21,582 bases of DNA from the IMG/VR virus record IMGVR_UViG_3300005086_000040, positions 1 to 21,582 of that record; one strand, written 5' to 3'. The notes beneath the pieces were generated by a model that worked only from the letters and a program-made list of their open reading frames with translations, made no database searches and was not told where the DNA came from. Positions 1-16,299 of this stretch are shown piece by piece (within the stretch, counting starts at the first letter, position 1; every line of letters starts with the position of its first letter). The position numbers and the translations under genes were made by a program. The stretch comes from a virus.

Positions 1-554
1 TAGCCCACGGTGCGGCTGCCGCGGTCGAACGGCTGCACCAGGGGCGGCCTGACCAGCTCGTCCACGTAGAGGTCGACGACGCCGCGCTTGTCCGTGTAGA
101 TGCGGGCGTAGCTGTCGCCGAACACGCTACCCAGATAGGCCATAGGGTAGGCGGACCGGTTTAGGATGCCGGACAGGTCTTCGCGAATCTCCTCCACGAT
201 CTTGCCCAGCTGTTCGTTCTGCTCGGCGGCCGGGCGCTTCTCGATGAAGACGATATCGCCCGACGTCTCGTGTCCGCCCAGGGCGGAGGTCACCAGCAGC
301 TTGATGGCGGACGACACGATGGGGTCGGCCTCCATCTGCGCCCACTTGTCGTAGATGGCCTGTCGCGTGCGCGCCTGGCGTGACCCCGACGCCAGAAGGC
401 TCGCGACCGTGGTCGTGCCGGCACCATAGAGCATGGTGTCGGACGGCGATATTTCGTGGCTCTCGGGGAGGTGCTCGCTCTCCCACTTCTTGGCACCAAT
501 GCCGAGTCGTGAGAGAAGCCCTCGCCGATGCCCAGTGGAAGATGATTTAGGCAT
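1..554 (-). CDS. Portal protein, N-terminal part (runs off the left edge)
   Basis: This is the first 184 codons of a phage portal protein; the 3' end lies beyond base 1. The portal is the dodecameric ring at one capsid vertex through which DNA is packaged and ejected. Residues 67-93 hold a portal-like segment (IYDKWAQMEADPIVSSAIK), in which a subunit of known valence carries paired-helix 'DP.VSSA' spacing, followed by a GDSYARIYTDKRGVV stretch near residues 147-161, as in T4 gp20-like and P1-like portals. I cannot see the stem or clip domains. The start is placed at the ATG at 554-552. A second in-frame ATG lies six codons upstream (573-571); both sit in the arms of a perfect hairpin and neither has a clear Shine-Dalgarno sequence. 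It is the last gene seen in the operon, 50 bases after the 139-aa gene and close to the DarB-like gene; a darB-portal neighbourhood is, from memory, also the P1 arrangement. The family call is from sequence reading only. Confidence 0.72.
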   Translation of the reverse strand, partial: MPKSSSTGHRRGLLSRLGIGAKKWESEHLPESHEISPSDTMLYGAGTTTVASLLASGSRQARTRQAIYDKWAQMEADPIVSSAIKLLVTSALGGHETSGDIVFIEKRPAAEQNEQLGKIVEEIREDLSGILNRSAYPMAYLGSVFGDSYARIYTDKRGVVDLYVDELVRPPLVQPFDRGSRTVG

Positions 555-575
555 GGCCCGATGGTGGGCCATGCC
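550..575. promoter_or_regulatory. Perfect 10-bp hairpin over the portal start codon
   Basis: The arms GGCATGGCCC (550-559) and GGGCCATGCC (566-575) pair perfectly around a 6-base loop. On the coding (minus) strand both candidate portal ATGs (573-571 and 554-552) lie inside the stem. No T-run follows on either strand, so it is not a standard intrinsic terminator. A role in limiting portal translation or in RNA processing is inference. Confidence 0.6.
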
Positions 576-604
576 AGGGCGGGATCAGCGGGGCGTTTTC
601 CGGC

Positions 605-1024
605 TTAGGCGTCGGCGAGGCGGGATTCCATGTCCTCGTCTTCCAGGGTGTAGATGGCGCCGGTCTCGCCATCCAGGATGAACTGGTTGGTGCCCACTGC
701 CTGCGTGGCCAGGTAGCGGGTGCGGAACTCGTCGGCCATGACGATGGTCTCGGCCGGCGTCTCACCCTGGTAGGCGGCACGCACCATCGGGTCGTCGCGC
801 TCGCCCAGCTCCCGGCCGCTGTCGATCAGCAGCGCCTTGAGCGCCCACCAGTAGGGCCCATAGTCCCGGTACCGAAGCGGATCCTTGGCCAGGCGGCGCT
901 CGACCACCCCCAGCGCGAAGCCGGGGAGGTCTGAGAAGCCGCGATTCTCCTTGAGGGCGGCGGCCCGCTGCCGGGCCAGCGCCTTGATCTCGTCCTCGTC
1001 GAACAGGTGTTCCGTGAATGCCAT
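605..1024 (-). CDS. Hypothetical protein, 139 aa, between the DarB-like and portal genes
   Basis: I do not recognise this protein. It is acidic and mostly helical in appearance, begins MAFTEHLFDEDEIKALARQ, has no signal peptide, membrane segment or cysteine, and contains an aromatic patch (YGPYWWALKALL, about residues 55-66). Its C-terminus is Asp/Glu-rich (YTLEDEDMESRLADA). The start codon is one base after the TGA of the DarB-like gene (TGACATG), with GAGAGG just upstream, so translation is almost certainly coupled to that giant gene. The position between a virion anti-restriction gene and the portal fits a small capsid or portal-associated protein, or a chaperone for DarB packaging, but nothing in the sequence proves either. 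The gene is well supported as coding: it is translationally coupled and its length and codon usage match its neighbours. Confidence 0.8.
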   Translation of the reverse strand: MAFTEHLFDEDEIKALARQRAAALKENRGFSDLPGFALGVVERRLAKDPLRYRDYGPYWWALKALLIDSGRELGERDDPMVRAAYQGETPAETIVMADEFRTRYLATQAVGTNQFILDGETGAIYTLEDEDMESRLADA

Positions 1025-1025
1025 G

Positions 1026-4000
1026 TCAGCCTCTCAGGTTGAGTTCTTGGGCGGCGCGCGGATGGTCGGCGATCAGCGCGTTCCAGGCCTGGCGGCGCAC
1101 GCGCCATGCCGTCTCCTTGCGCACCCAACGCCGGTAGCTGCCGTGCCGGGTGCCGTACTCCTTGATGCGATCCTTCCAGGCGCGGGTATCGCCTTCGATC
1201 AGCACCATCTCGTCGGGGTCGCCGCCGGCGCTTCCCGCGGGCGCGGGCTCGTCTGCCGGCGCGCTGCCGGTGTCGTCGGGCAGTTTCTCGGCGATGGCGA
1301 CCATGGCCCGGCGCTGCAGGTGGTGCGGCAAGTATGAATGGCCCTCGCCGTCGAAGTCGAACCACGGGGCGTGCGCCTCCATGAAGGCCTCGACGTTGCG
1401 ACCAATCTCGTCGCCATCCTCGCCGACCAGGGTCGCGGCGAAGGCCTCCTCGTTCAGGCCCTCGCGAATCAGTTGGCGCAACCGATAGAGCTCGCCGGGC
1501 AGGTCGGACGCCTTGAGCTTGAGCCCGTGGGCAATGGCGTAGTCGCGCAGCGCCTCGGCCTTGGCCGGGCGGTCGCGAACCACCTCGACGTCGTTGCCGA
1601 CCACGAAGTCGGACCCCTCCCAGCGCTTGATGACGGCCTTCTGCTCCTCGGCGATCCTGGCCAGCACCTCGGACCCTGCCGGCACTTCCTCGGCGCGCAC
1701 CGCCAGCGGGAAGTGCGGGGCAGGCAGCGAGTAGGAATAGCTCGAATAGGCGGCCGATACGTCGGTCTCGCGACGCGTGGCCACCGCCGGACAAGCCGTG
1801 GAGTAGGTGTTGAGCGTTTCGCCGGCACGCTCCGCCGCGTCCTCGATGGCGGCGGCACGGGTCAGGCACTCCTCGTACTTGGCAGACCCCGGGTAGACGA
1901 TCTCGCCCACCGGCACCAGGGCATACAGCAGGGCGCGGCGTTCGCGGCCATCCACCACGGCGGTGGCCCCGGGGCGGAAGTCGGACAGCCCGCCGCGACC
2001 GACCACGAACAGCTCGCCATCGGCCAGCACGAAGCATTCGGCGATCACCGGCTGGTCGCCCACCAGCACGCCGTTGCCGGCCTCGAAGGCCTCGGCCACG
2101 CCATCGGGCAGGCCGCCGACCTCCTTGGCCTGGCGCTGGTAGCTCTCCACCGCCTGGCGGCGCATCTGGCGCGCCATGTCGACCTCGGTCTCCCACTCGT
2201 TGACCAGCTCCGACTCGTGGTCGACATCGATATCGACGGCCCCGAAGCCCAGCCGGCCCCGGCGCAAGGCCTCCACCAGGTCGGACGCGCGATTCTCGCC
2301 GCGCTTGGCACGATCCAGGAAGGTGGTCACCACCTCGCGCGGGCTCAGCGGGGCATCGCCGCTGCGCTCATTCTGGCGGGTCTGGTAGTTGTAGCTGGCC
2401 CGATGGAAGGTCGCCGCCTCCTCGATCTGGCGTTGCAGGCCGCGCTCCTTGACCTCCAGCTCGGCCAGCAGGCCCTCGTTCTTGGCCCGGGCCGACTCGC
2501 TCATCTTGGGGCGCGACAGCCGCTTGCGGACCTTCTCGGTCTGCCCCATGGCGCTCAGCAGCTGCCCCATCTTGCGCGCCACCCAGTCGCTGGCCTGCTC
2601 GTTATCGGCCAGGAACTGGTTCTGCTTGTCGATGGTGTCCAGATTGATGCGCTGACGCTCGCGGTTGGTCGTGGCTCGGCGCTCGGCCTCCTTGGCGGCC
2701 ATCGCCTCCTGAATGCGGGTCACGGCATCGGCGTCGCCCACCACGTCGATCAGCGCCTCCATCTGCTCGCGGCTCATGCCGCCGCTGATGGCCAGGCTGT
2801 CGCCGCCGTCGGGCTTCATCATGGCGCCAATCCAGTCCGCCTTGCTGTTGACCAGGGAGCGCTTGGCGGTGTCGAAGGTGCCGTCGGCGTCGTAGTGGTA
2901 GACCGTGACCTGCTCAGTCTTGTTGCCCTGGCGCACGCCGCGACCGTTGTGCTGGGTCAGGCTGTCCGGCGTCCAGCCGATGGTCAGGTGGTGGATGGCC
3001 TGCGTGCCCTTCTGCAGGTTGATGCCGACCTCCGCCTTCTCGTTGGCGATGATCACGCGGTACTTGTTGGCCTCGCCCGGGGCGTTGAAGCCATCCTGCA
3101 CCTCCATGATCTCCTCCGGGCTGTTGTTGCGCTGCCCGGTGACGACGGCGATGGCCGATGCCGGTACGCCGGCTCGACGGGTCAGCAGCCGGCGGATCTT
3201 GTTGTGAAGACCCAGCAGGTCGCAGAAGATGATCTGCTTGGCGTGCGGGATGCGATTGCCCTCGGCATCCACACCGCGCGGGGTCGCCGCCTCGGTCTGG
3301 AAGTTCTCGAGCATGGCGGCCAGCTTGGGCGGTACCGAGACGTCGATCTCGACGCCGGCCTTGTCGGCCATGGCCTCGAAGCGGTCCTGCGTGTCCGAGC
3401 TCACGGTGTCGAGCACGATGGCGCCACCCTCGATCCACGCCTTGACCGGCATCTTGTACTGGCGGCCGACCACCTCGCGGTTGGCGTCGCGGATGGTCTT
3501 CACGCTGACCGCTTCCTCCGCCGTGGCGTTGGGCCCGGGGCGGGTGCGCTGCTCGGTGGGCGGCTTGGCGTTCCACTGCTCCACCAGGGCGCGGGCCTGC
3601 TCCTCCTCGCCGTCGTTGATCACGTAGCGCGACACCCGGGCATCGAGGTCGGGGTCGGCGATGAGCATGGTCATCTTGTTGATCAGGTTGAAGGGGTGGC
3701 CGACGAGCTCCATGGGCTCGCCGAACTTGCCGGCGATGCGCTCGAAGGCCGCCGCGTCGCCGCGGTTCTCGCCGCGCTCCGCCATGGCGTCGGCGGCATA
3801 GCGATAGGCCTGCTTGTACTCCTCCAGCTGCACCACGGTCGCCTCCGGCAGCTGGATGCTGCTGGCCCGCTCCGGGGCGTCCGGCACCTTGATCTGGCTG
3901 CCGACGTCATCGGCGTTCTTGATGGTAGCCACCTGGCGCATGGCGCCGCGCAGCATCTCGACGTTGTTGAGCCCCTTGAACACGTTGATGGCCCGGCTCT

Positions 4001-7000
4001 CGCCGTCGATGGACTCGTCGTCCTCGTTCTCGATCTGGCACACGGTGTTCATGAAGCCGTCGGCGCCCGATGTGCCGATGAACATGTCGTTCACGCGGTC
4101 ATGACCCACGGCCAGGGCCATCATGGAGTAGATCTCCAGCGGGCTGTTGGTGATGGGCGTGGCGGTCAGCAGCATGACGCCATCGCCCCGGGCGCCGCTG
4201 CCGCCACGGATGGCCCAGGCCTTGGCCTGCGCATCGAGGCCGCGCTTGGACGCCGGCGACTGCGACAGGTACTTGCCACCCTTGAAGTCCACGGTGGTCG
4301 CCGAGTTCTTGAACACGTGGGCCTCGTCGATCACCAGCGAATCGATGCCCATGTCCTCGAGGAAGGGGGCGGCGCCGTCCTTCTTGCCCAGCACGTCGAC
4401 GATGGTCGCTGCCTTGCCCTTGGCGCGCTCGTCGGCCTTGCGGTCCTCGCTCTCGGCGAAGGACTGGTCGGCGCTGCGCATGTAGGACTCGTAGCCGGTG
4501 ATGGTGTCGTCGCGCAGCCGGATCCGCTCGAAGGCCTCCATGGTCATGAAGATCTTGCTGTGGCGGTTCTCCATGATGCGGTTGAGGTCTTCGTCGTAGG
4601 CCGACGAATCCACGCGGCCGTCGCGCAGCCCCACGTAGAGGCAGTCATCGGTGCTGGCGTAGGCCTTGGCGCTCTCCTTCTGCCAGTTGGACAGCACGGA
4701 GTTGGGGACCACGAAGACGGTCTTCTTCTTGGCGCCGATGGACTGCACGTACTGCGCCACCGCCAGCGCGGTGAAGGTCTTTCCCAGTCCTACGTCGAAG
4801 CCGTTGATGCCGGAGAAGTCGCGCGCGCGGGAGCGCACGTAGGCGTTTTGGTAGCCGTGCAGCTCGAGCTCGGGGTTCATGCCCGGGATGGCCAGCGGGC
4901 TCTCGTCCTCGGGCTGGGCGAAGCGCAGCTTCTCCGGGTCGTTGGCCTGGCTCTCCAGCCGCGACACCACGTTGGCGTTGCCCCGCGCCCAGCCGTTGAA
5001 CTGCTCGTTGGCCTTGTTGACCAGGGCGCGAAGCTCGCGGATGCCCTCGGCATCGCCCATGTCCAGCTTGGTGCCGCCCAGGGTGATGGTGCCGTTCTTC
5101 AGGTAGGCGCCGATGCGGCGGATCAGCTTCTCGCGGTCGGTCAGCTGGCTACCCGGGATGTCAAACTCGATGCGCGGCTCGCTGGTCTTGTCGTCGAAGG
5201 TGACCACCGCTCCGGGGTGCACGAAGCGACGCAGGAACTCGGCCTTCTCCTCGAGGGTGACGTAGGGGCTGAACAGGTTGAAGGAGATGCGCGACACGTC
5301 CACGCGGTCGATGCGCTCGGCAGCCACCGCCTTCTGGCGCATCAGCTTGGCGCGCACCTTGTCGTTGGGCGCCGCCGCCATCTCGGCGTCGATGCGCTTC
5401 ACGAACTCGCCGTAGCTGCCCACGTAGTAGTCGTCGGCGCGACTCACCTGGCTGCCGTCGGCGGACACGCACCAGTCGTCGTTGGCGAACGGGTCGAAGC
5501 CGTCGCCCAGCACGGTGCGCGCCTGCTCCAGGCTGACCCAGCTCGACTGATTCTCGTACAGCAGGCCCTCGAAGCCGTGCTCGGCGCTCACCTGCATGGC
5601 GGGCGCCTCCTGCACGTCGCCACGCCACAGCGCGCTGAAGCCGGCCTTGCGCTGATAGTGGGCGGCCAGCTCGCCCAGGCCGCGACGCAGCTCGCCGTCC
5701 ACGCCCTTGACCCGCCGCGCGGCGGCCGCCTGGCGCTTCATCGCCTCGGAGAGCTTGGCATAGCCGGACAGGAAGTCGGTACCGCTGCCCCGCCCGCTCT
5801 CGTCCAGCACCTGCGATACGGCCAGGCCCACCAGGCCGGGCGCCCACGCGCGGGCGCGGGCATCGTCGTCGGGTAGCTTGTCCAGGGTGGCCAGCGCCGA
5901 CGCCAGCCAGGCCGGCATGTCCAGGGTCTGGGAGGTGTCGCGCATGTACTGACGCAGCGTCAGCGCATCGTCATAACTCATGCCGGCGTCGAAGGCGGTG
6001 TAGGCGTCCTTGAACTGTCCCAGCAGCTCGGCGCCGCGCACGTCGCGGCTGCCCGCCTCCAGTGGCACCCACTGGCCGTCCCGCAGCTGCAGGGTCTGGC
6101 CGGCCTGAGTCAGGGTGTCGCCCTCGTGGTAGATGATGGGCTGGGTCTCGGCCGCCTCCAGCAGCATCCAGTCGACACGACTGCCCGGCAGGCGGCGAAT
6201 CAGCTTGGCCACCTCGGGGACGCTAGCCGGGTTCTTGACGCGATCGACGTCGCGGAACTTCTCGGGGTCCTTGGGCACGAACTCGCCGAGCACGAAGCGC
6301 CGGCCCTCGCCCTTGAAGTAGCGCCCCTCGACGAACTCGCCCCACATGACCTTGGCCTCGGCCAGGGTCTCGGGCGCCTGCTCGTGTAGCTCCTCGATCT
6401 TATCGGCGGCGTCGCGGCCGTACTTGCGGAAGAAGATGACGTCGGTGATGGTGTCCGCGTCGGCGGCGCCGAACACGCTGTTGGGCAACCGGTAGGCGCC
6501 CAGGAACTCGGCCTTCAGGCTGGCCCGCTGGCGTAGCTTGACCTCGGCGCCGCCCCGGCCCGACACGCAGCGCGGCGGCACCACGAAGGCGGCCAGGCCG
6601 CCGGGCTTTAGCTTGTCCAGGGAGCGCAGGATGAAGTAGGCCTCCAGGGTCTCCTTCTGGTACTTGGGGTCCAGGTTCTGATTGCCACCACGGTCGGCCA
6701 CGGTGCCGAACGGCACGTTGGTCACCACGGCGTCATAGCTCTCGTCGGGGGTGGCCGCCGCCACGGCCTCGAAGGGCGATACCGTGGCTGTGTAGCCGGG
6801 GCCGGCATTGACCAGGGCGTTGATGGTGCCCGACGTCTCGTCGAGCTCCACGGCATCCACGGCGGCATGGCGCGGCGCCGTGGCGCCGAACACGCCGGTA
6901 CCGGCCGCCGGGTCGAGAATCTTGCCACCACTGAAGCCCATCGCGCCCAGGGCATCCCAGATGCCCTCGGCAATCGGCTTGGGCGTGTAATACTCGTAGG

Positions 7001-7472
7001 CCGACCCCTTCTTGCCGTCGGCGCCGACCAGGGCCCCGCCGTTGCCGGAGTAGCCGGCCAGCACGGCGCGATCCTCGTCGGTCAGCTCCTCGCGGGCGAC
7101 TTCGCCGGACTGGATGCGGGCCAGCAGCTCGACGGCGGCATTGTTGGCCTTCTGGCGCTGCCCCTTGGTGCGCTTCTCGTCGTGGCTGTACAGCCCAGCC
7201 GTAGGCTGTCGCGGCGTCTCGACGGGCTCGGGCGGGTCGCGCTCGGCCTTCATCGCCTTGCCCGGGTCGGCGGCCAGGGTGGCCGCCTTGAGCTCGGTGC
7301 GAATCTCGTTGGCCCGCTTCACCAGCGTCAGGCGCTGCGCCATGGCGGCGATGCCTTGCGGCAGGGCGATAAGCTCCTTGCGCACGCGGCCCAGCTCGGA
7401 CACCAGCTTGAGCCGGGCCATCATCGCCTGAGCACCGCCACCGGCAGAGGCATCGTCGTAGATAGGCTTCAT
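1026..7472 (-). CDS. darB: DarB-like anti-restriction protein: N6-adenine methyltransferase fused to SNF2-type helicase
   Basis: A 2148-aa protein close in size to P1 DarB (about 250 kDa), which is injected with phage DNA and protects it from type I restriction. A gamma-type methyltransferase domain lies near residues 155-350: SAM-binding motif I (LDPAAGTGVFG, 186-196) and catalytic-loop motif IV in the form NVPFG (252-256) instead of NPPF/Y. A superfamily 2 SNF2-like helicase spans about 860-1560: Walker A GFDVGLGKT (891-899), DEAH (1049-1052), TATP (1103-1106), motif IV region (IIFCDLLGLHNK, 1414-1425), motif V (ANEKAEVGINLQ, 1476-1487) and motif VI (QHNGRGVRQGN, 1507-1517). The last 590 residues, including a helical charged stretch at 1590-1700, match nothing I know. 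The start has AAGGAG eight bases upstream and lies 12 bases after the DarA-like gene, so the two are co-transcribed. Family and motifs are seen; packaging into the virion and protection against restriction are inferred from P1. Confidence 0.9.
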   Translation of the reverse strand: MKPIYDDASAGGGAQAMMARLKLVSELGRVRKELIALPQGIAAMAQRLTLVKRANEIRTELKAATLAADPGKAMKAERDPPEPVETPRQPTAGLYSHDEKRTKGQRQKANNAAVELLARIQSGEVAREELTDEDRAVLAGYSGNGGALVGADGKKGSAYEYYTPKPIAEGIWDALGAMGFSGGKILDPAAGTGVFGATAPRHAAVDAVELDETSGTINALVNAGPGYTATVSPFEAVAAATPDESYDAVVTNVPFGTVADRGGNQNLDPKYQKETLEAYFILRSLDKLKPGGLAAFVVPPRCVSGRGGAEVKLRQRASLKAEFLGAYRLPNSVFGAADADTITDVIFFRKYGRDAADKIEELHEQAPETLAEAKVMWGEFVEGRYFKGEGRRFVLGEFVPKDPEKFRDVDRVKNPASVPEVAKLIRRLPGSRVDWMLLEAAETQPIIYHEGDTLTQAGQTLQLRDGQWVPLEAGSRDVRGAELLGQFKDAYTAFDAGMSYDDALTLRQYMRDTSQTLDMPAWLASALATLDKLPDDDARARAWAPGLVGLAVSQVLDESGRGSGTDFLSGYAKLSEAMKRQAAAARRVKGVDGELRRGLGELAAHYQRKAGFSALWRGDVQEAPAMQVSAEHGFEGLLYENQSSWVSLEQARTVLGDGFDPFANDDWCVSADGSQVSRADDYYVGSYGEFVKRIDAEMAAAPNDKVRAKLMRQKAVAAERIDRVDVSRISFNLFSPYVTLEEKAEFLRRFVHPGAVVTFDDKTSEPRIEFDIPGSQLTDREKLIRRIGAYLKNGTITLGGTKLDMGDAEGIRELRALVNKANEQFNGWARGNANVVSRLESQANDPEKLRFAQPEDESPLAIPGMNPELELHGYQNAYVRSRARDFSGINGFDVGLGKTFTALAVAQYVQSIGAKKKTVFVVPNSVLSNWQKESAKAYASTDDCLYVGLRDGRVDSSAYDEDLNRIMENRHSKIFMTMEAFERIRLRDDTITGYESYMRSADQSFAESEDRKADERAKGKAATIVDVLGKKDGAAPFLEDMGIDSLVIDEAHVFKNSATTVDFKGGKYLSQSPASKRGLDAQAKAWAIRGGSGARGDGVMLLTATPITNSPLEIYSMMALAVGHDRVNDMFIGTSGADGFMNTVCQIENEDDESIDGESRAINVFKGLNNVEMLRGAMRQVATIKNADDVGSQIKVPDAPERASSIQLPEATVVQLEEYKQAYRYAADAMAERGENRGDAAAFERIAGKFGEPMELVGHPFNLINKMTMLIADPDLDARVSRYVINDGEEEQARALVEQWNAKPPTEQRTRPGPNATAEEAVSVKTIRDANREVVGRQYKMPVKAWIEGGAIVLDTVSSDTQDRFEAMADKAGVEIDVSVPPKLAAMLENFQTEAATPRGVDAEGNRIPHAKQIIFCDLLGLHNKIRRLLTRRAGVPASAIAVVTGQRNNSPEEIMEVQDGFNAPGEANKYRVIIANEKAEVGINLQKGTQAIHHLTIGWTPDSLTQHNGRGVRQGNKTEQVTVYHYDADGTFDTAKRSLVNSKADWIGAMMKPDGGDSLAISGGMSREQMEALIDVVGDADAVTRIQEAMAAKEAERRATTNRERQRINLDTIDKQNQFLADNEQASDWVARKMGQLLSAMGQTEKVRKRLSRPKMSESARAKNEGLLAELEVKERGLQRQIEEAATFHRASYNYQTRQNERSGDAPLSPREVVTTFLDRAKRGENRASDLVEALRRGRLGFGAVDIDVDHESELVNEWETEVDMARQMRRQAVESYQRQAKEVGGLPDGVAEAFEAGNGVLVGDQPVIAECFVLADGELFVVGRGGLSDFRPGATAVVDGRERRALLYALVPVGEIVYPGSAKYEECLTRAAAIEDAAERAGETLNTYSTACPAVATRRETDVSAAYSSYSYSLPAPHFPLAVRAEEVPAGSEVLARIAEEQKAVIKRWEGSDFVVGNDVEVVRDRPAKAEALRDYAIAHGLKLKASDLPGELYRLRQLIREGLNEEAFAATLVGEDGDEIGRNVEAFMEAHAPWFDFDGEGHSYLPHHLQRRAMVAIAEKLPDDTGSAPADEPAPAGSAGGDPDEMVLIEGDTRAWKDRIKEYGTRHGSYRRWVRKETAWRVRRQAWNALIADHPRAAQELNLRG

Positions 7473-7484
7473 CCTTGGGTCTCC

Positions 7485-10400
7485 TTACAGGTCTTCGGTG
7501 GCGGACAACATGGCGCGCTCATAGGCGGCGCCCGCTCGCTCGATCAGGTCTTCCATCTCGTCGTCGCCGGACTGGCGTTCCATGACGGCCAGGATCCGGT
7601 CGGCCAGGTCGGGGGACAGCATGTCGGGCACCGTGCCGTCGATCACGGATTGCAGGAACTGGCGGTCGTTGCGGCGCATGGCCTCCTCCTCGCTTTCTGG
7701 CGCTGCGGGCTCGGGGGTTGCGCTGCCCTCGCCTTCGCCGGCCTCTTGGCCGCCGCTGGGCGCGGCGTCACGGTTGAACAGGGGGCGATAGCTCTCCCAG
7801 TCGTCGGCAGCCTTCCACACGGCGTTGCGCGCGGTGACGGCCGGCTTGTCCCAGTCCTTCTGCTGTTCGGCCAGCCAGGCCAGCAGCACGCCGGCCATCA
7901 GCGGGTCACGCTTGGCGCGGGTCTTGATCTTGCCGGTGATCGAATTGACGAACAGCGAGCGCTCCATGCCCGGCATGGTGCCGGCATCGATGCCCTTGAT
8001 GGTGGCCAGCGAGCGCGTGAAGTCGCGGGTCAGCGACGCGAACTCGTCGCGCTGGGTGACGGCCCGAGCCTGCTCCAGCGGATCGGCGGCGGGCGCCTCC
8101 TCGGCGGGCTCCTCGGCGGCAGCGGGCTTGCCCTCGGCGGCGCTCGGCAGCCAGGCCTTGAGCTCGTCGACGCTCATCTCCTGCGTGCTGCCCAGGCCAT
8201 CCCAGCCGGCGCGGTAGCTGGACAGGTAGCCCTGCTCGGCAGCCTCCTTGGTGGCGAAGCCCAGCATCACCTTGTGCTCGTCCAGCTCGCCGTCCTTGCC
8301 CACCTGGTTGATGACGAACACGCGCTCGCTCTCCAGGTCGGGGCCGATGAACACGTCGACCTCATCGCCGTCGGCGCCCTTGGTGCCCTTGATGTAGCCG
8401 TAGTCGTTCGCCATGGACACCGACCACGCCTCGCCCTCCTGCGTGGTGCCCGAGCGCTCGCTGCCCTTGGGGTTCTCGATGGCCACCGTCAGGCCGTGGA
8501 TCTCGACCTCGCCCTTGGCGTACTCCCCGTTCTCCTTCTCCGCCTCGGTCGGCTCGGTATCGGTGGCCTGACGAGCCTGCTCGATGTCGTCCTCGTTCGG
8601 CTGGCCGTCACCGGCGGGCGCCTCGTCCGGGGGTGCGCTGAACATGTCCAGCGACTCGATGGCGTAACTGCCCTCGCCGTACTCCTTCTCCAGCTCCCGG
8701 TTGGCGGCGTCGATGATCTGCTCGAGACTGGCCTGCTGGCCCTCGCCGAACATGTCCACGGTCTGGCCGCGCTCGGCTTCCTGGCGCACGAACGCCGCCA
8801 TGGCCTTGAAGGCCAGTCCCAGACGCTTGGCGCTGCGGTTGTTCTGGTTGATGAACAGGGCCATGGCAGAGGTGGCCGGCGGAATATCGCCGAACAGCCC
8901 CATCTGGTTGACCACCTCCTCGACGCTCGACCCGTCCGCCTTGGCGCGGCGCACCAGGTTGGTGGCGTCGATGATGGCCTGCACCGCCTGCTCGTTCAGC
9001 GAGACCTCGACGCTATCCACCAGCTGATTGGTCAGCGCATCGGTGCCGGCCTGGTCGGCAGCCTGTGCCCGAATGAACTCGGGGGCGGCCACGTTGAGGG
9101 CGTTGACCACATTGGCCACCTCGGGCTTGCTGGCGTCGGCGGTCATCTCCAGCAGGCGCTCGTCGTTGTACGCCTTGGCGAAGATGGCGGCCTGAATGCG
9201 CGCCACCAGCGCCCCGGTGGGATTGCCGTCGCTGGTCATGTACTGGGCGGCCTCGGTATCGCCCAGGGACTGCAGGAAGCCCATGATGAAGTCGCGGTTG
9301 GATGCGGCCAGCAGGTTGCCGTCATCGGCCAGCTTGGCGACCAGGGCCTCGTCCAGCCGGTCGGCGTCGGCGCGGGCCTTCTCGGTACCGGTCATGCTCA
9401 GCTTGTCGTCCTGGTTGGCCTCGACGGCGAACTCCCGGCGGTCCAGCGCGGACGTGCGCACACGCACGAGCACGGGCGCCTTCATGGCGCGCACGCGGCC
9501 GGCATCCAGGTTGTAGTGGTGGGCCTCCTCGATCAGCCATTCGCGGTACTCGTCGGCGCTGCCGCTGCGGTACGCCTCCTGAATGGCCATGGTGCGACCG
9601 TTGCCGGACTCCACGACACGATCCGGGCCGACGATGGGCGCCCCGGTGTCGGCGCGACGGGTGCGCCCCAGGCTATCCGGATCCAGCTGGCGGGCGGTCT
9701 TCTTGACCCAGGCGATGGACGCATCGCGCCCGCGATCACGCGGCTGAAGCTCGGTCGGGAAGGCAGGGTTGGGGTCGCCGTTGATGTCATGCGAGGCGAT
9801 CAGCTCCTCGGCCTCCACCACGGTGAAGCCGGTCTGCACCTCGGAGCCCTTGGCGGTCTTGACCACGTTCTCGGCGCCCTCGGGCTCGAGCTCGCCGTCG
9901 GCATTGACGCCGGTCGGCGTGTCCTTGCCGGTGGGCTCGGCGGGCGGCTCGCCCTCGGCCAGCTCCACGAAGCGCTCCCAACCGATTTGCTCGGCCAGCT
10001 CGTTCTTCACGGCTGCTGCCTGAATCGGGTAGGCCTTCTGGAAGGCGGACCACGCCTCGGCATCGACCTGGCTTGGCGCCTCGCCGGCGGCGAGAGACGC
10101 CTTCCAGCCGTCGATGGTGGCCTCGGCCGCTTCGCGACGTGCAGCGGCGCCGTCGTCGCGGCTTGTGACTCCCAGGTCGATACGCTCCGCCAGCGCCTCG
10201 GGAGACAGGTCCAGAGAGTCGCTCATGAAGAAGCCGGCGACGCCGGAGAGCGTGTAATTCATGCCCACCACGTTGCCGCCGGCGCCGACGCTCTCGGTGT
10301 TGACTACCAGCGTGACGCCACCCTTCGACAGTTCGCCGTAGCTTTCGCCGCCCCATCCCAGCTCGCGAAGGGCGTTGCGAACCTCGATGACGCGGCCTTG

Positions 10401-11672
10401 GAAGAAGCTGTCGAGCTGGTCCTGGTAGCGCTCCTTGGCCTCATCGCCGGCCGCGATGATGCGCGCGAAGTCGTCAGCAGTCTGCGGATCTTGAGGGAGG
10501 GCACCGGGAGCATCAGCGGCACCCGGGAAACCCCCGGCCTCCCGCCCAGAGACGCCTTCCTCGCCTTCGCTCACCGCCTGGCTCAGCGGCTTGGGTTCGA
10601 AGTACAGGTCGAGCTCCACCCCGGCGCCTGTCAGCTCGTCGACGCCGATGTAGCCGAGCTCACCCTGCCCCAATCCGGGGTCGGCCCAGCCGAAGGCCTG
10701 CTCGGTGCCATCGCCCTTGGCGTCCTTCTCGGTGATGTACCAGTCGCCTCCGCCGCGAAAGTAGTGCAGGTAGGCGGTGGTCTCGTCCATCTCCTTGCCG
10801 TCCTGCTCATAGGTCTTGGCCATGCCGTCGATGATGCTGGCCAGCACCTGAGCGCGATCGATGTAGGCCTCGGACTCCTCGCCCTTGCGGATGACGTCGG
10901 CCATGGCCCGGTACTGCTGACGGGAAAGCCAGGGGCGAAGCTCGTCCAGCAGGTCGAGGCCTTCCTGCTTGGTCAGCGGCTTGGGCGTGTTCAGCGCCTC
11001 GTCCTCGGCCTCGATGCGGGCAATCTCGATCTGCCGGGTCAGGCCGTCGAGTTCGGTTTCCAGCTCGCCGATTTCGCCCTTCAGGGACTCGATGTACGCC
11101 AGGCGCTCGGCACGCTTCTGGTTCATGCGCGCGAAGGTCTTGGAGTTCTTCTCGGCCAGCTTCATGATGCGCTTCGCCACCTGGCGAATCGGCAGGTCGC
11201 TGCCGCGCTCCGGGGCCACCACGATGGTGATGTCCTTCTTGTTGAGCAGCCACTTCCAGCTGATGAGCTCATCGGTGGGCTTCAGCGACTTGGCGGTACC
11301 GGCGTCGGGGTTGTGGAACATGACGGTCACGGTCTGGCCGTCGCTCAACTCGAAGATGGCGGCGACATTGACCACGCCCTGACGCTTGAAGGGGCTGGAC
11401 ACCTGCGAGGCCACGACCTCCAGCTCGCCGCCGCCGGCCGACATGACGCGCTCCAGGCTGCGCACCTTGCGCCCCAGGCTGGATTGGGTGGCAACCAGGG
11501 CGTCCAGCTCGAAGATGGCCTCGGCCTCCTCCAGGATGTCGTCGAGCGTCACGCTGTCGAAGATCAGGCCGTCGTCGGCGTCGGAGCGCCGGATGCGGTA
11601 CAGCAGTTGGTCCAGCGACATGCCCACCGGCATGGCGCTACTGTCGTTCCACAGAACAGGAGGTGCAGACAT
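7485..11672 (-). CDS. darA: DarA-like large polyvalent protein (DarA-N, DUF2958, DdrB/ParB-like, pyrophosphatase-like)
   Basis: A 1395-aa multi-domain protein. Residues 1-225 match the DarA N-terminal domain known from P1-type defence-against-restriction proteins (FELSDGQTVTVMFHNPD, 107-123; ISWKWLLNKKDITIVVAPER, 137-156; LAEKNSKTFARMNQKRAE, 172-189), followed by a coiled coil. Residues 307-366 look like DUF2958 (GDWYITEKDAKGDG ... ELGYIGVDEL). Residues 635-985 resemble the DdrB-like ParB-superfamily domain (GAPIVGPDRVVESGNGR, 677-693). Residues 1050-1176 resemble the soluble inorganic pyrophosphatase-like domain of polyvalent proteins: YGYIKGT (1091-1097) and DGDEVDV (1101-1107) keep the three metal-binding Asp of the DGDPVD signature, with Glu in place of Pro. 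Acidic, low-complexity linkers join the parts. The start follows AAGGGG at moderate spacing and a 120-base gap. P1 DarA is a capsid-internal protein injected with DNA; the same role here is inference. Domain borders are approximate. Confidence 0.88.
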   Translation of the reverse strand: MSAPPVLWNDSSAMPVGMSLDQLLYRIRRSDADDGLIFDSVTLDDILEEAEAIFELDALVATQSSLGRKVRSLERVMSAGGGELEVVASQVSSPFKRQGVVNVAAIFELSDGQTVTVMFHNPDAGTAKSLKPTDELISWKWLLNKKDITIVVAPERGSDLPIRQVAKRIMKLAEKNSKTFARMNQKRAERLAYIESLKGEIGELETELDGLTRQIEIARIEAEDEALNTPKPLTKQEGLDLLDELRPWLSRQQYRAMADVIRKGEESEAYIDRAQVLASIIDGMAKTYEQDGKEMDETTAYLHYFRGGGDWYITEKDAKGDGTEQAFGWADPGLGQGELGYIGVDELTGAGVELDLYFEPKPLSQAVSEGEEGVSGREAGGFPGAADAPGALPQDPQTADDFARIIAAGDEAKERYQDQLDSFFQGRVIEVRNALRELGWGGESYGELSKGGVTLVVNTESVGAGGNVVGMNYTLSGVAGFFMSDSLDLSPEALAERIDLGVTSRDDGAAARREAAEATIDGWKASLAAGEAPSQVDAEAWSAFQKAYPIQAAAVKNELAEQIGWERFVELAEGEPPAEPTGKDTPTGVNADGELEPEGAENVVKTAKGSEVQTGFTVVEAEELIASHDINGDPNPAFPTELQPRDRGRDASIAWVKKTARQLDPDSLGRTRRADTGAPIVGPDRVVESGNGRTMAIQEAYRSGSADEYREWLIEEAHHYNLDAGRVRAMKAPVLVRVRTSALDRREFAVEANQDDKLSMTGTEKARADADRLDEALVAKLADDGNLLAASNRDFIMGFLQSLGDTEAAQYMTSDGNPTGALVARIQAAIFAKAYNDERLLEMTADASKPEVANVVNALNVAAPEFIRAQAADQAGTDALTNQLVDSVEVSLNEQAVQAIIDATNLVRRAKADGSSVEEVVNQMGLFGDIPPATSAMALFINQNNRSAKRLGLAFKAMAAFVRQEAERGQTVDMFGEGQQASLEQIIDAANRELEKEYGEGSYAIESLDMFSAPPDEAPAGDGQPNEDDIEQARQATDTEPTEAEKENGEYAKGEVEIHGLTVAIENPKGSERSGTTQEGEAWSVSMANDYGYIKGTKGADGDEVDVFIGPDLESERVFVINQVGKDGELDEHKVMLGFATKEAAEQGYLSSYRAGWDGLGSTQEMSVDELKAWLPSAAEGKPAAAEEPAEEAPAADPLEQARAVTQRDEFASLTRDFTRSLATIKGIDAGTMPGMERSLFVNSITGKIKTRAKRDPLMAGVLLAWLAEQQKDWDKPAVTARNAVWKAADDWESYRPLFNRDAAPSGGQEAGEGEGSATPEPAAPESEEEAMRRNDRQFLQSVIDGTVPDMLSPDLADRILAVMERQSGDDEMEDLIERAGAAYERAMLSATEDL

Positions 11673-11792
11673 AGCAAGGCCCCTTGATGGGTTGAACAGG
11701 GCGCCGATGGGCGCGCTATGGGGCCATGCTATGGGAGGGAGAGGGGTGGGCCCGGTCGGCTTTTCCTGGCCGCGACGGGCTCCATGGCGGGC
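11673..11792. other. 120-base intergenic region upstream of the DarA-like gene
   Basis: This is the longest gene-free gap in the window. It is GC-rich. On the minus strand it holds a direct repeat of CCCATAGC (about 14 bases apart) flanking CATGGCCC, and a short GCGCC/GGCGC dyad at 11701-11714. It is where a promoter or operator for the two giant anti-restriction genes would be expected, but I see no convincing sigma70 -35/-10 pair and no T-rich terminator for the upstream tail operon. Confidence 0.4.
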
Positions 11793-12083
11793 CTAGCCGC
11801 CGGCAAACACGTCACCGGAGCCGGCCGCCACGGCAGAGCCGCAGTCCACGGAGTCGCCGACACGCCCCAGGGGCTTGCCGTTGACGTTGACGCTGCCTGA
11901 CCCGCTGGCCAGGGCGCCGCCGTGGCAGACCGGCACGTCGTTGCAGTGCGTGGCCCAGCCATCGCCCACGCGGTGAGCCGGGATGCCGTTGACCATGACG
12001 TCAGGGCTTCCGCTCGTGCTGTTGCGCGGCGGGAACGCCCCGTGTCCGGTGCAGCTATCGCCTTGCCGAGTGACGGCGGGCAT
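11793..12083 (-). CDS. PAAR-domain spike-tip protein
   Basis: A 96-aa PAAR-repeat protein of usual length. PAAR proteins form a small zinc-bound cone on the end of the phage or type VI spike and sharpen it for membrane piercing. The pattern is complete: TGHG at 12-15, a VNG.PAHRVGD turn (31-41), THC (45-47), CHGG (53-56), a second VNGKPLGRVGDSV turn (67-79) and CGSAVAAGSGDVFAGG at the end. Likely metal ligands are among His14, His46, His54 and Cys81, by analogy with the family. The start is fixed by a strong AAGGAGG six bases upstream, which makes the gene overlap the end of the preceding ORF by 29 bases. It lies downstream of the hub and OB-fold spike genes, consistent with assembly of the central spike. 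It is the last tail gene before the anti-restriction pair. Confidence 0.92.
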   Translation of the reverse strand: MPAVTRQGDSCTGHGAFPPRNSTSGSPDVMVNGIPAHRVGDGWATHCNDVPVCHGGALASGSGSVNVNGKPLGRVGDSVDCGSAVAAGSGDVFAGG

Positions 12084-12564
12084 CGATCTCCTCCTTCAGC
12101 CGGTCGCGGCCGGCCGTCCAGTCCTGGTGAATCTCGATCAGGTACGACATGTAGGCCTCGCTGCCGTCCTCGAGGTCGGCGATCACGTCGAGCCGGTAGG
12201 CGCGCGTGGTGTCGCGGCTGGGTCGGAACTCGATCACCTCCTCGGCACTGGCGGGCAGCGCCTGCCAGTCGAGCACGCGGGCCACCTGGCCGTCCTGCAG
12301 GTAGTCGATGAAGTCGATGGGGAACAGTCCGGCCAGGTTGCCAGCGCTCACCGTCAGGCCGTCGGGACCACCCTCCACCGCCAGCACGCTCTGTTCCGGG
12401 GTGATGCTCCCCCGGTAGCCGGTCACCGCCACCGGCGCCGGCAGCCCGGTCACGGGGTCGACGCCCTCCACGTCCACGCTGATGGTGGTCGACACCGGGC
12501 CGCCGGTCTCCGGCAGGCTGAACAGCACGTCTGGCGGCGGCGTCCAGGTCTCGGTCGTGGCCAT
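12055..12564 (-). CDS. Hypothetical tail/baseplate-associated protein, 169 aa
   Basis: I do not recognise this protein. It looks beta-rich, with many Val/Thr/Gly segments (for example VSTTISVDVEGVDPVTGLPA, residues 24-43), then ends in a charged helix (DWTAGRDRLKEEIDARRH, about 148-165). There is no signal peptide or membrane segment. It begins six bases after the stop of the DarA-N-like gene with no clear Shine-Dalgarno sequence, so it probably relies on re-initiation, and its 3' end overlaps the PAAR gene start by 29 bases. Its place between the spike gene and the PAAR tip suggests a baseplate or spike-adaptor role; that is inference from neighbours only. A tail-fibre or immunoglobulin-like structural domain is another possibility. 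Confidence 0.8.
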   Translation of the reverse strand: MATTETWTPPPDVLFSLPETGGPVSTTISVDVEGVDPVTGLPAPVAVTGYRGSITPEQSVLAVEGGPDGLTVSAGNLAGLFPIDFIDYLQDGQVARVLDWQALPASAEEVIEFRPSRDTTRAYRLDVIADLEDGSEAYMSYLIEIHQDWTAGRDRLKEEIDARRHSARR

Positions 12565-12569
12565 GGCGA

Positions 12570-13055
12570 TCAGGCGGCGTCAGGCTTGAGCTCGGCGAGC
12601 TGCTGGCGGGCGTCGTCCACGGCCTCCTTGAGGGCGTCGCGCTTCTCCTCGAGGCGGGTCTCCATGCGCGGGGCCGCCGTCTTCATGCGCTTGGGCAGCT
12701 TCACCTTGGCCTTGGCCAGGCGCTTCTGGAAGGCCGTCCGGCCCCGGTCCATGGCCTGCACGATCTCGCCGATGGCCTTGGCGTGATCGTCCTGGTTGGC
12801 CATCGGCATGACCTTGCGGTTGAGCATGACCTGAAAGATGTCGCCCGGGCGCTTGATGCGCAGCTTGACCACCTGGCTGTCGGAGAAGGTCAGGCTGATT
12901 TCGCGGTAGCTGACGCCGCTGGTGCGCTTGACGCGGGAGTCGACGTCGACGCTCACCGGGTTGGCGCCGGCGCGCTTGAAGTGCTTTTCGAGCTCCTTGA
13001 CGGCCTTGTCCTTGCGGGTCAGGTCGTCGAAGGAGAACAGGAGATTGGCAGCCAT
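12570..13055 (-). CDS. Small DarA-N-like protein, 161 aa
   Basis: A basic, helical-ended protein whose residues 35-115 resemble the N-terminal domain of the DarA-like protein in this window. Shared features in the same order are a KR.(.)GV motif (KRTSGV at 43-48 versus KRQGV at 96-100), FSDSQVVKL (57-65) versus LSDGQTVTV (109-117), LNRKVMP (78-84) versus LNKKDIT (143-149), and a helix with AF.KR..KAK (108-117) versus TFARMNQKRAE. The C-terminal 45 residues are a charged coiled-coil-like helix. In P1 a small gene (hdf) lies next to darA and is a member of the Dar group; equivalence is tentative. A perfect AAGGAGG five bases before the ATG fixes the start. The gene sits between the OB-fold spike and an unknown tail gene. 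Possible roles: internal virion protein, packaging partner or chaperone for the large DarA-like protein. The resemblance was found by eye and is not scored. Confidence 0.75.
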   Translation of the reverse strand: MAANLLFSFDDLTRKDKAVKELEKHFKRAGANPVSVDVDSRVKRTSGVSYREISLTFSDSQVVKLRIKRPGDIFQVMLNRKVMPMANQDDHAKAIGEIVQAMDRGRTAFQKRLAKAKVKLPKRMKTAAPRMETRLEEKRDALKEAVDDARQQLAELKPDAA

Positions 13056-13068
13056 GGCGGCCTCCTTG

Positions 13069-13539
13069 TCAGTTCAGGTTGATCATGCTGGCCAGCTGCG
13101 TGATATCGCCTGGCGTCAGGGTGATGGTCGAGCTACCCACCTGCAGGGTGATGCTGTCCTTGGCGCTGACGTGCACCAGGCCGCCGGAGTTCAGGCGCAT
13201 CTCGGCATCGGTGAGCAACTGCATGTTCTCCTTGTGCCAGCGCCGCCAGCCGATGGAGTTGCCGGTCGTCGGGTTCCGCCAGCCGGTGATCAGCGGGTGG
13301 CGCGGGTCGCCCTGTATGAACTCGACCCACACCTTGTCGCCGGCCAGCACCTCGATCTCGGTCATGGTCTCGTGCCGGGACTTGTCGCCGATGGGGTACT
13401 CGATCTCGGCGATCAGGCCACCCTCGGCACCATCGGTGATGCCCGGGATGCTGACCTCGCAAGTGCGGCTGTCGCCGTCGTAGGACGTGACTACCGCCGG
13501 CCACTTGCCGGCCAGCAGGCCGCCTCCGGTCGCACTCAT
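13069..13539 (-). CDS. Baseplate central spike protein, gp5/gpV-like OB fold
   Basis: A 156-aa spike protein. Residues 10-90 form a gp5/gpV-type OB-fold: PAVVTSYDGDSRTCEVSIPG, then LAGDKVWVEFIQGDPRHPLI (65-84) with the GDP..P.ITG hallmark of the spike family. After a linker with WHKENMQLLT come short alternating beta segments (LVHVSAKDSITLQVGSSTIT, 121-140), expected for a trimeric beta-helix needle. The open frame continues 99 codons upstream (to 13836), but that part overlaps the hub gene and reads as an Arg/Gly-rich shadow, so the ATG at 13539 is chosen; it overlaps the TGA of the hub gene as ATGA, a coupling signal. With the hub upstream and the PAAR protein three genes downstream it should form the membrane-puncturing device. 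No lysozyme domain is present, so this is a P2 gpV/T6SS-like spike rather than a T4 gp5. Confidence 0.9.
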   Translation of the reverse strand: MSATGGGLLAGKWPAVVTSYDGDSRTCEVSIPGITDGAEGGLIAEIEYPIGDKSRHETMTEIEVLAGDKVWVEFIQGDPRHPLITGWRNPTTGNSIGWRRWHKENMQLLTDAEMRLNSGGLVHVSAKDSITLQVGSSTITLTPGDITQLASMINLN

Positions 13540-14435
13540 CGCTCCCACCTCCCCAGCCATACGCGGGTGAATTGCTCCGGGGCATCGCCGTCGGCCCCGG
13601 GCGCGAACAGGTTGGCGACCGTCATGGCCACCAGCGGCTCCCCGCCCACGACCTCGATCAGGTCGCCGGCGGCGATCTTCTGCGTGTACTTCAGGCGCGT
13701 GACCTTGGTCAGCACCAGGCAGCCCGTCATGTTGCGCAGCGTCATTGCGTTGGCGCCCGGCTGGAAGCGCGCGGCGCGCGGCTTGCCCCGGTTGCCGTAC
13801 ACGAACTCGCCATCGGCATCCAGGCTGTAGAACCACGGGATGTCGTGGCGCTCCAGGAAGCCGGACTCCACGTCATCGGAGGCGGAGTCGACGATGGTGT
13901 CCACCGGCTCCTGGTCGAACAGCGAGCCCAGCGGGATGAATGCCAGGCGGCCGTTTCGCCACCTAACGACGCCGCCCGCCTCCTGCAGGGCGCGGGCGAT
14001 GTGATAGGTGTGGGCCTCACCGGCCAGGCAGACGAAGCGCGGTACCGCGAAGTCGCCCTCGATGCCGCGCAGCGTGGCCCCGCACGCGCGATAGACCTCG
14101 GCCAGGGTGGCGCCGTGCTTGATCACCGCCCGGGGCTTGATGAACGCCACCGGCGTCACCGGCTTCAGGGTGGCGATCAGCCGCACATAGCCGGACAGGT
14201 CGTCGCCCTGCATGCGCGCCTGCTGGACGTGCTCGGACTTGATGATCTCCAGCTCGTCGCCGTCATAGGTGGTGATCGAGCGCCCGACCTCGAAGTGCTG
14301 GGCGGTCTCGGTACCGACGCGGATCTCGGCTTCCAGGGTGAGCGGTATCGGCACCAGGTCGGAGCGCAGCACCGCCCGGCGGATGAAGTCGCCGCGGATG
14401 CGTTGGTCGCCGTTCTCGCCGAAATACAGCTCCAT
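13536..14435 (-). CDS. Putative baseplate hub protein (gp27/gpD-like)
   Basis: A 299-aa protein placed directly before the OB-fold spike, where gp27/gpD-type hub proteins are found. It begins MELYFGENGDQRIRGDFIRR, followed by LVPIPLTLEAEIR (27-39) and an ERDE-like beta segment ITTYDGDELEIIKSEHV (54-70). Later parts include a GATLAEVYRACGATLRGIEG stretch (108-127), typical of the hub domain in which a short helix precedes a beta barrel, and a polar, beta-rich C-terminus. The hub is a trimer that connects tail tube to spike. The ATG has a purine-rich AGGGGG upstream and starts 10 bases after the preceding gene. Assignment rests on position and overall pattern; I could not confirm specific hub motifs, so the name is provisional. 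Confidence 0.6.
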   Translation of the reverse strand: MELYFGENGDQRIRGDFIRRAVLRSDLVPIPLTLEAEIRVGTETAQHFEVGRSITTYDGDELEIIKSEHVQQARMQGDDLSGYVRLIATLKPVTPVAFIKPRAVIKHGATLAEVYRACGATLRGIEGDFAVPRFVCLAGEAHTYHIARALQEAGGVVRWRNGRLAFIPLGSLFDQEPVDTIVDSASDDVESGFLERHDIPWFYSLDADGEFVYGNRGKPRAARFQPGANAMTLRNMTGCLVLTKVTRLKYTQKIAAGDLIEVVGGEPLVAMTVANLFAPGADGDAPEQFTRVWLGRWER

Positions 14436-15830: not shown

Positions 15831-16085
15831 TCAGTGCGTGGTGCGGATGACGGCCTCCAGGCGCCGAACATGGCCCTGCAAGGTGGCGTCGCGTGCGGCC
15901 AGGCCCTCATAGGCGTCATCGGGCAGGCACGCCATGGCGTCGGCCGGGATGCGCGGCAGCGCGGGCCGGTCGGGTACCGGCAGCGGCTCCTGCACGAAGA
16001 CGGTCTCAGTCCTCGTGGCGCATCCAGCCATCAGCAAAATGGTCGCGCCGACCGCTGCGCGCTTCAGTGCGGACTTGCTCGACAT
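15831..16085 (-). CDS. Outer-membrane spanin lipoprotein (Rz1-like), 84 aa
   Basis: An o-spanin: a small lipoprotein that joins the inner-membrane spanin across the periplasm and fuses the membranes in the last step of lysis. The signal peptide is MSSKSALKRAAVGATILLMA, with lipobox LMAGC and acylated Cys22. The mature part is Pro-rich (EPLPVPDRPALPRIPADA, 33-50), typical of Rz1, then ends in a helix (TLQGHVRRLEAVIRTTH). The open frame extends 35 codons further upstream, but that part is Pro/Arg-rich shadow sequence; the ATG at 16085 is chosen because GGAGGAGGGGGAG stands directly before it and the signal peptide begins there. The first 80 bases lie inside the end of the inner-spanin gene in another frame, the usual Rz/Rz1 overlap. 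Confidence 0.88.
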   Translation of the reverse strand: MSSKSALKRAAVGATILLMAGCATRTETVFVQEPLPVPDRPALPRIPADAMACLPDDAYEGLAARDATLQGHVRRLEAVIRTTH

Positions 16086-16299
16086 GTCGCTCCCCCTCCT
16101 CCTTGGCCTCGGCGCTGGCCACGTCGGCGGCCTGGCGCTGGGCGATGCGTTGTTCAGCGGTATCGGCCCGCCGGGCCTGGCGGTCGGCACGCTGGCTGGC
16201 GTTGTCGCGTTGTCGTTGGGCGTTTTGCAGCAGGAAGCCCAGCACGGCGGCGGTCAGCCCCAGGGCGCCGGCGACGATCTGCCATAGGCGGCTAATCAT
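16006..16299 (-). CDS. Inner-membrane spanin (Rz-like), 97 aa
   Basis: An i-spanin: one N-terminal membrane helix (about residues 7-24, IVAGALGLTAAVLGFLLQ) followed by a long charged coiled coil (26-80) rich in Arg, Gln, Glu and Ala (for example QRQRDNASQRADRQARRADT). This is the standard N-in, C-out layout of Rz, shorter than lambda Rz (153 aa) but in the range seen in other phages. Its start has GGGAGG seven bases upstream and overlaps the stop of the preceding membrane-protein gene as ATGA. The outer spanin begins inside its last 80 bases. Function from topology and neighbours; no enzymatic motif is expected for this family. Confidence 0.85.
   Translation of the reverse strand: MISRLWQIVAGALGLTAAVLGFLLQNAQRQRDNASQRADRQARRADTAEQRIAQRQAADVASAEAKEEGERHVEQVRTEARSGRRDHFADGWMRHED

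Follow-up and report, generated by a model that had tools for sequence, protein, structure and literature searches.

A probable P1-type Dar module with cargo inside DarA, an exchangeable DarB place and candidate packaging tags in a viral DNA fragment

The window analyzed here (positions 1 to 21,582 of the IMG/VR virus record IMGVR_UViG_3300005086_000040, a 21.6-kb linear fragment of that record) contains genes related to the Dar system of phage P1, i.e., late proteins that would be built into the phage head, ejected with the DNA and able to shield it from host restriction. We found what is probably a P1-type Dar module, in which N-terminal leaders (NT1 to NT3) and a C-terminal module (CT) would serve a modular platform as tags for packaging or docking, and we put the probability of this reading at roughly two in three. 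DarA is a single long polypeptide whose ends, a capsid-binding part at the N-terminus and CT at the C-terminus, are constant and flank the cargo domains, and the place of DarB behind it appears, from the genes found there, to be a swappable slot.

Results

The Dar genes of the window

12570..13055, minus strand: Hdf, 161 aa (phrog_1620, 3.5e-41; PF18788, 2.4e-22; phmmer against P1 Hdf in the cryo-electron microscopy (cryo-EM) head, 9ukm_H, 7.6e-11)
7485..11672, minus strand: DarA-type polyvalent protein, 1395 aa (open reading frame (ORF), Pfam and PHROG profiles)
1026..7472, minus strand: DarB, adenine methylase and SNF2 ATPase, 2148 aa (profiles, BLAST-type comparison and motifs)
605..1024, minus strand: Ulx, 139 aa (phrog_1629, 5.9e-28; 41% to P1 Ulx over 63 aa)

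The original prediction was of a DarA-type gene of 1395 aa and a DarB-type gene of 2148 aa, 12 bases apart on the same strand, and the ORFs agree exactly; the gap occupies 7473-7484, and a Shine-Dalgarno-like AAGGAGA precedes DarB. Their kinship with P1 DarA and DarB was borne out by profiles far beyond chance (PF18788, PF18763 and PF18823 in DarA; N6_Mtase and SNF2 in DarB, which also matched the PHROG 'DarB-like antirestriction' at 8e-72). The N-terminal part of DarA matched P1 DarA of the cryo-EM P1 head (9ukm_I) by phmmer at 1.2e-18, and the same chain was the top Foldseek match of the predicted DarA model (1.1e-6); because confidence in this model is low (mean pLDDT, the predicted local distance difference test, of 65), it was used solely for that match. 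The window thus holds DarA with an N-terminal DarA_N, an upstream Hdf, DarB with methylase and SNF2 regions, an adjoining Ulx, and the N-half of DdrB fused within DarA, the missing component being a separate DdrA gene. By homology, then, all the P1 Dar proteins bar a separate DdrA are recognizable: Hdf, DarA, DdrB, DarB and Ulx.

The neighbours of the cassette are sheath, tube, baseplate and portal genes, so that its predicted placement among late structural genes held, and this is the configuration expected of virion-borne proteins. It also bears on the idea that these are plasmid or integrative and conjugative element (ICE) methylase-helicase genes carried by chance and unrelated to virion anti-restriction. 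DarB-like methylase-SNF2 proteins are indeed frequent on plasmids (2062 plasmid records); this explanation is nevertheless scarcely credible, given that position, the linked Hdf and Ulx, and the best characterized relatives, which are tailed phages and P1-like phage-plasmids rather than the helicases without tailed-phage Dar kin that had been named as grounds for dropping the Dar assignment.

Relatives were gathered from IMG/VR (17 loci with a DarB query and 58 with a DarA query), from records of phages and plasmids, and from other genomes such as those of Ectothiorhodospira mobilis (97%; an element of strain DSM 237 has a DarB with this identity) and Halomonas salipaludis (85%); the metagenome contigs among them may contain errors, and the effector census is biased because the loci were collected with DarA or DarB queries. 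DarA lies within 20 bp of DarB in 23 of the 41 tabulated DarB loci, and their adjacency is thus a clade feature. The 'fusion of the two' proposed originally has to be withdrawn, since DarA and DarB are merely adjacent; the real fusion is inside DarA, where DarA, DUF2958-like, DX, DdrB and InPase parts are joined. In 34 of the 41 loci, Ulx comes after DarB in the same direction; the remainder are four contig ends, two loci in which Ulx is encoded on the opposite strand, and one split darB with Ulx past its second half. The earlier reading was largely right yet missed the DarA-internal fusion, Hdf, Ulx and the shared end-modules.

DarA carries variable cargo between constant ends

11004..11651, minus strand: N-terminal capsid-binding region, residues 8-223 (PF18788, DarA_N, 9.3e-41)
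10575..10961, minus strand: DUF2958-like domain, residues 238-366 (phrog_5203, 6e-15; PF11171, 0.0016, below cut-off; kept in relatives)
10176..10490, minus strand: DX domain (unnamed), residues 395-499 (purpose-built hidden Markov model (HMM); gained or lost among relatives)
8670..9881, minus strand: DdrB N-terminal region with ParB-like domain, residues 598-1001 (43.8% to P1 DdrB over 409 aa; PF18763, ddrB-ParB, 5.8e-35)
8148..8552, minus strand: InPase domain, residues 1041-1175 (PF18823, 3.2e-52)
7494..7670, minus strand: CT module, residues 1335-1393, about 58 aa at the C-terminus (HMM across relatives)

Several unrelated enzymatic domains in a single DarA protein beside virion genes is the hallmark of a polyvalent protein. 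CT had no Pfam match and is a new C-terminal module. In 37 of 38 distinct CT-bearing DarA proteins, the HMM placed it 0-9 residues from the C-terminal end, while ten cargo arrangements differing in kind and order were found between DarA_N and CT in these 38 proteins, with a spacing of 328-1768 residues. One relative (L081) has DNA about 95% identical around darA, yet lacks DX and is longer by about 205 residues, in which an ADP-ribosyltransferase (ART-like) match is weak and below the Pfam cut-off. The cargo of another DarA (L043) comprises MutS_I and LPD3, plus a weak PBECR3 match. The cargo may also be split into separate genes (L064, L066 and L086), and such separate proteins can have their own CT. 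Of 25 records, 22 have CT once, at the end of darA, and L030 shows an additional weak match. When CT was searched by tblastn against named phages and plasmids, only Ideonella was returned at the cut-offs used; for a query of this length, the sensitivity of such a search is too low.

In many relatives (e.g., L003:21802-25467), InPase stands ahead of DarA_N, which is the place of the approximately 70 residues thought to be removed by the P1 prohead protease.

The place of DarB is refilled behind a constant leader

7284..7460, minus strand: NT1 leader of DarB, residues 5-63 (HMM; tandem amphipathic motif)
6060..7196, minus strand: N6-adenine methylase region of DarB, residues 93-471 (PF02384, N6_Mtase, 9.7e-11)
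2622..4991, minus strand: SNF2-type ATPase region of DarB, residues 828-1617 (PF00176, 3e-10)

The DarB of the window has the motifs NVPF, DVGLGKT, DEAH and QxxGRxxRQG. In seven relatives (L035, L037, L039, L042, L050, L060 and L104) its place is occupied by an LPD1-type protein that has an HExxH motif, and L030 has a PBECR1 nuclease-like protein there; all seven LPD1 genes and the PBECR1 gene bear the DarB leader NT1 at their start or close to it. The peptidase nature of the LPD1 protein is suggested by the HExxH motif alone, because its model was of low confidence and gave no match in the PDB below 1e-3. Ulx was absent from six tabulated LPD1 loci, and none was seen in L030 or L104.

The L030 and L013 loci share about 91% DNA identity across darA and into the slot gene, where it stops at codon 65; the two slot proteins are 84.6% identical at residues 1-65 and unrelated beyond. 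Such a break, exactly at the leader end in the sole swap visible at the DNA level, is as expected of an upstream homologous arm, and the shared leaders could accordingly be recombination landing sites instead of packaging tags, with the DarA 3' end and the leader serving as sites of homologous recombination through which effectors are exchanged, and the leaders kept only for crossovers. We regard this as quite unlikely, since peptidase and DUF2958-like proteins also bear leaders, on genes away from the darA 3' end and within the protein, and the leaders are held at the protein level. The ratio of nonsynonymous to synonymous divergence (dN/dS) was 0.08 for the L030/L013 pair and 0.16-0.23 among LPD1 leaders (0.08-0.27 overall, with dS above 0.5), and therefore the leader peptide is under selection irrespective of what follows it.

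Intein-like inserts break the SNF2 region of DarB in three relatives (L018:12947-14155, L017:662-1882 and L043:18913-19998); the Pfam domain for intein splicing was matched in two of them (5e-15 and 3e-14), and a LAGLIDADG homing endonuclease in the third (1e-9). A DarB 49% identical was found in L083, a Bacteroidota-labelled contig of a metagenome-assembled genome titled Alistipes senegalensis, whereas the other relatives are mainly proteobacterial; it is possible that this contig was mis-binned.

NT1 is probably related to DdrA and recurs on unrelated proteins

NT1 is about 55 aa long; when an HMM was trained on DarB N-termini and nothing else, it also detected this leader on metallopeptidases and small DdrA-like proteins and, internally, in DUF2958-like proteins. 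NT1 was present in 25 of 25 records, in one copy except for three records with two (split peptidase and DUF2958-like genes), and narrower NT1 scans of viral contigs returned mostly loci already known. The other leaders behave alike: NT2 is common to other DarBs and small DdrA-like proteins (1e-6 and 2.7e-5), and NT3 to DUF2958-like proteins and other DarBs (2.7e-7 and 8.8e-6).

The curated DdrA family phrog_1855, which was made independently, matched NT1 in the same register in L082 (1.7e-7 and 6e-4) and L014 (0.0014), and gave 0.066 and 0.16 with two DarB leaders; neither it nor other PHROGs matched the window's own NT1 copy. A 103-aa protein of Vibrio p0908 was matched by phrog_1855 at 3e-32 and also by NT1. 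When the DdrA of P1, D6 and Pantoea was aligned with the DarB-leader profile (hhalign, 20.6%), the score was 22.5, compared with a maximum of 19.1 in 500 column shuffles. We relied on this unbridged comparison with its 500 clean shuffles, because one column-shuffle control of the bridged comparison scored 131 through a degenerate 14-column gap alignment. The DUF2958-like domain, which occupies the same place, was considered as a candidate DdrA and rejected, since phrog_1855 matches NT1 instead.

In the LPD1 protein model, NT1 forms a two-helix hairpin, with modest confidence there, and short helical modules often mediate contacts. NT and CT might then be assembly domains acting only between Dar proteins (oligomerization, or DarB-DarA contact after ejection), with capsid entry governed by other signals. 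We find this an unlikely account, though one with some claim to attention: the packaging signal of P1 DarB is N-terminal, in the same position as NT1, and its 30 N-terminal residues suffice to package a reporter or foreign protein (PMC9024508).

In Xanthomonas phage Rb1 (PQ569993), an unannotated 154-aa ORF in the gap between darA and the metallopeptidase gene (L003:25480-25944) has an NT1 leader and a CT-like tail, and is probably DdrA.

Discussion

A model of head loading and what weighs on it

In P1, all six Dar proteins (Hdf, DarA, DdrA, DdrB, DarB and Ulx) are virion proteins (PMC9024508), pairs of Hdf and DarA line the inner capsid, and the other Dar proteins are added in order (PMC12810830, PMC9024508); Hdf is the partner of DarA at the inner capsid surface (PMC12810830), and P1 Ulx aids DarB localization. 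By extension from P1, Hdf and DarA of the phage studied here would line the inner capsid, Ulx would then help DarB to be loaded, and the methylase-ATPase of DarB would protect the incoming DNA. The comparison of relatives suggests that the NT leaders and CT could be packaging or docking tags, and if so, any leader-joined effector could be loaded. P1 DdrA, a leader and a tail in one small protein, may then be a free-standing adaptor, whose leader sits here on DarB. On whether Dar is a general head-loading platform, with NT1-3 (NT1 being homologous to the N-half of P1 DdrA) and CT as docking tags, and a slot after darA that is refilled (methylase-SNF2, LPD1 peptidase-like or PBECR1 nuclease) while the tag stays, we judge the odds evenly balanced.

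Several observations count against reading the leaders and CT as tags of a Dar module. The packaging role of the NT leaders is drawn by analogy, because P1 DarB matches none of NT1-3 and its residues 11-30 were dispensable in one deletion in P1; given the mismatch, the P1 experiment speaks for where the signal lies but not for its sequence. The homology of P1 and D6 DdrA to NT1 is weak when assessed directly and depends on the Vibrio p0908 bridge. A separate DdrA was not found in the window by PHROGs (no phrog_1855 match) or BLAST, a divergent leader at the DarB N-terminus being its only trace, and neither was the metallopeptidase domain of the DdrB C-half. The window also lacks a prohead protease and most head genes.

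The clade supplies concrete candidate head-loading signals with natural effector swaps behind them, and therefore protein loading into heads, as well as the choice of injected effectors, becomes directly testable. The leaders are also usable as bait for unknown injected effectors.

Neighbouring genes

12055..12564, minus strand: 169-aa protein between hdf and the PAAR gene (phrog_1168, 0.0011 only)
11793..12083, minus strand: PAAR-type spike-tip protein (phrog_281, 8e-31)
3..572, minus strand: N-terminal part of the portal protein, incomplete, crossing the window edge (phrog_1497, 2e-43)

The minus strand carries all annotated genes of the window, in the order tail sheath (20432-21580), PmgG-like, PmgB-like, holins, endolysin, tube, baseplate, Hdf, PAAR, DarA, DarB, Ulx and portal. 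The cassette was said to lie next to the portal gene; its direct neighbour is Ulx, with a start one base past darB, and the portal gene comes right after. No sigma-70-like promoter was detected in 1-13600, which says nothing on phage late promoters. The PAAR gene separates hdf from darA here and in most close relatives, and P1 has no such gene there. Long plus-strand ORFs lie opposite darB (1338-5876, 1512 aa) and darA (6867-11687, 1606 aa) and are taken to be artefacts of high GC and codon bias. A small lipoprotein-like ORF with a lipobox-like MAGCATRT (15831-16088), near the holin and endolysin genes, is possibly an outer-membrane spanin.

Comparison with known systems

The internal proteins of T4 with a capsid targeting sequence, discussed in PMC9024508, resemble the present case in the idea of an N-terminal head-loading tag. 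The catalogue of polyvalent proteins from phages and conjugative elements by Iyer et al. (2017, PMC5512222) is the source of the DarA_N, DdrB-ParB, InPase, LPD1, PBECR and methylase-SNF2 domains; the passages of that work retrieved by keyword contain neither NT1-3 nor CT, nor a replacement of DarB behind a constant leader. Among named phages Rb1 comes closest, at 46.9% over 2105 aa for DarB, 52% for Ulx, 56% for Hdf, 61% for the sheath and 65% for the tube; it differs in having InPase at the DarA N-terminus, no DdrB in DarA, a separate metallopeptidase gene, the 154-aa DdrA-like NT1 gene, and NT3 on DarB.

In the study of P1, BLAST gave no shared signal among the Dar proteins, and DarB enters the head via its N-terminus (PMC9024508); this N-terminus is unlike that of the window's DarB, with its NT1 leader. 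P1 has two blocks, hdf-darA-ddrA-ddrB and darB-ulx, with 10,667 bp between darA and darB, as the original prediction had it in stating that they lie apart, whereas here there is one co-directional block. The P1 portal gene, prt, is divergent, and here it is downstream on the same strand; moreover, DarA, the DdrB N-half and InPase are here in one protein, without the DdrB peptidase C-half or a separate DdrA. The statement that the other genes look unlike P1 did not survive, since Hdf, Ulx, PmgB-like, PmgG-like and portal families are common to both. What the two systems share among their late genes is a homologous Hdf, DarA N-part, DdrB N-half, DarB and Ulx, in the conserved order hdf-darA-ddrB-darB-ulx.

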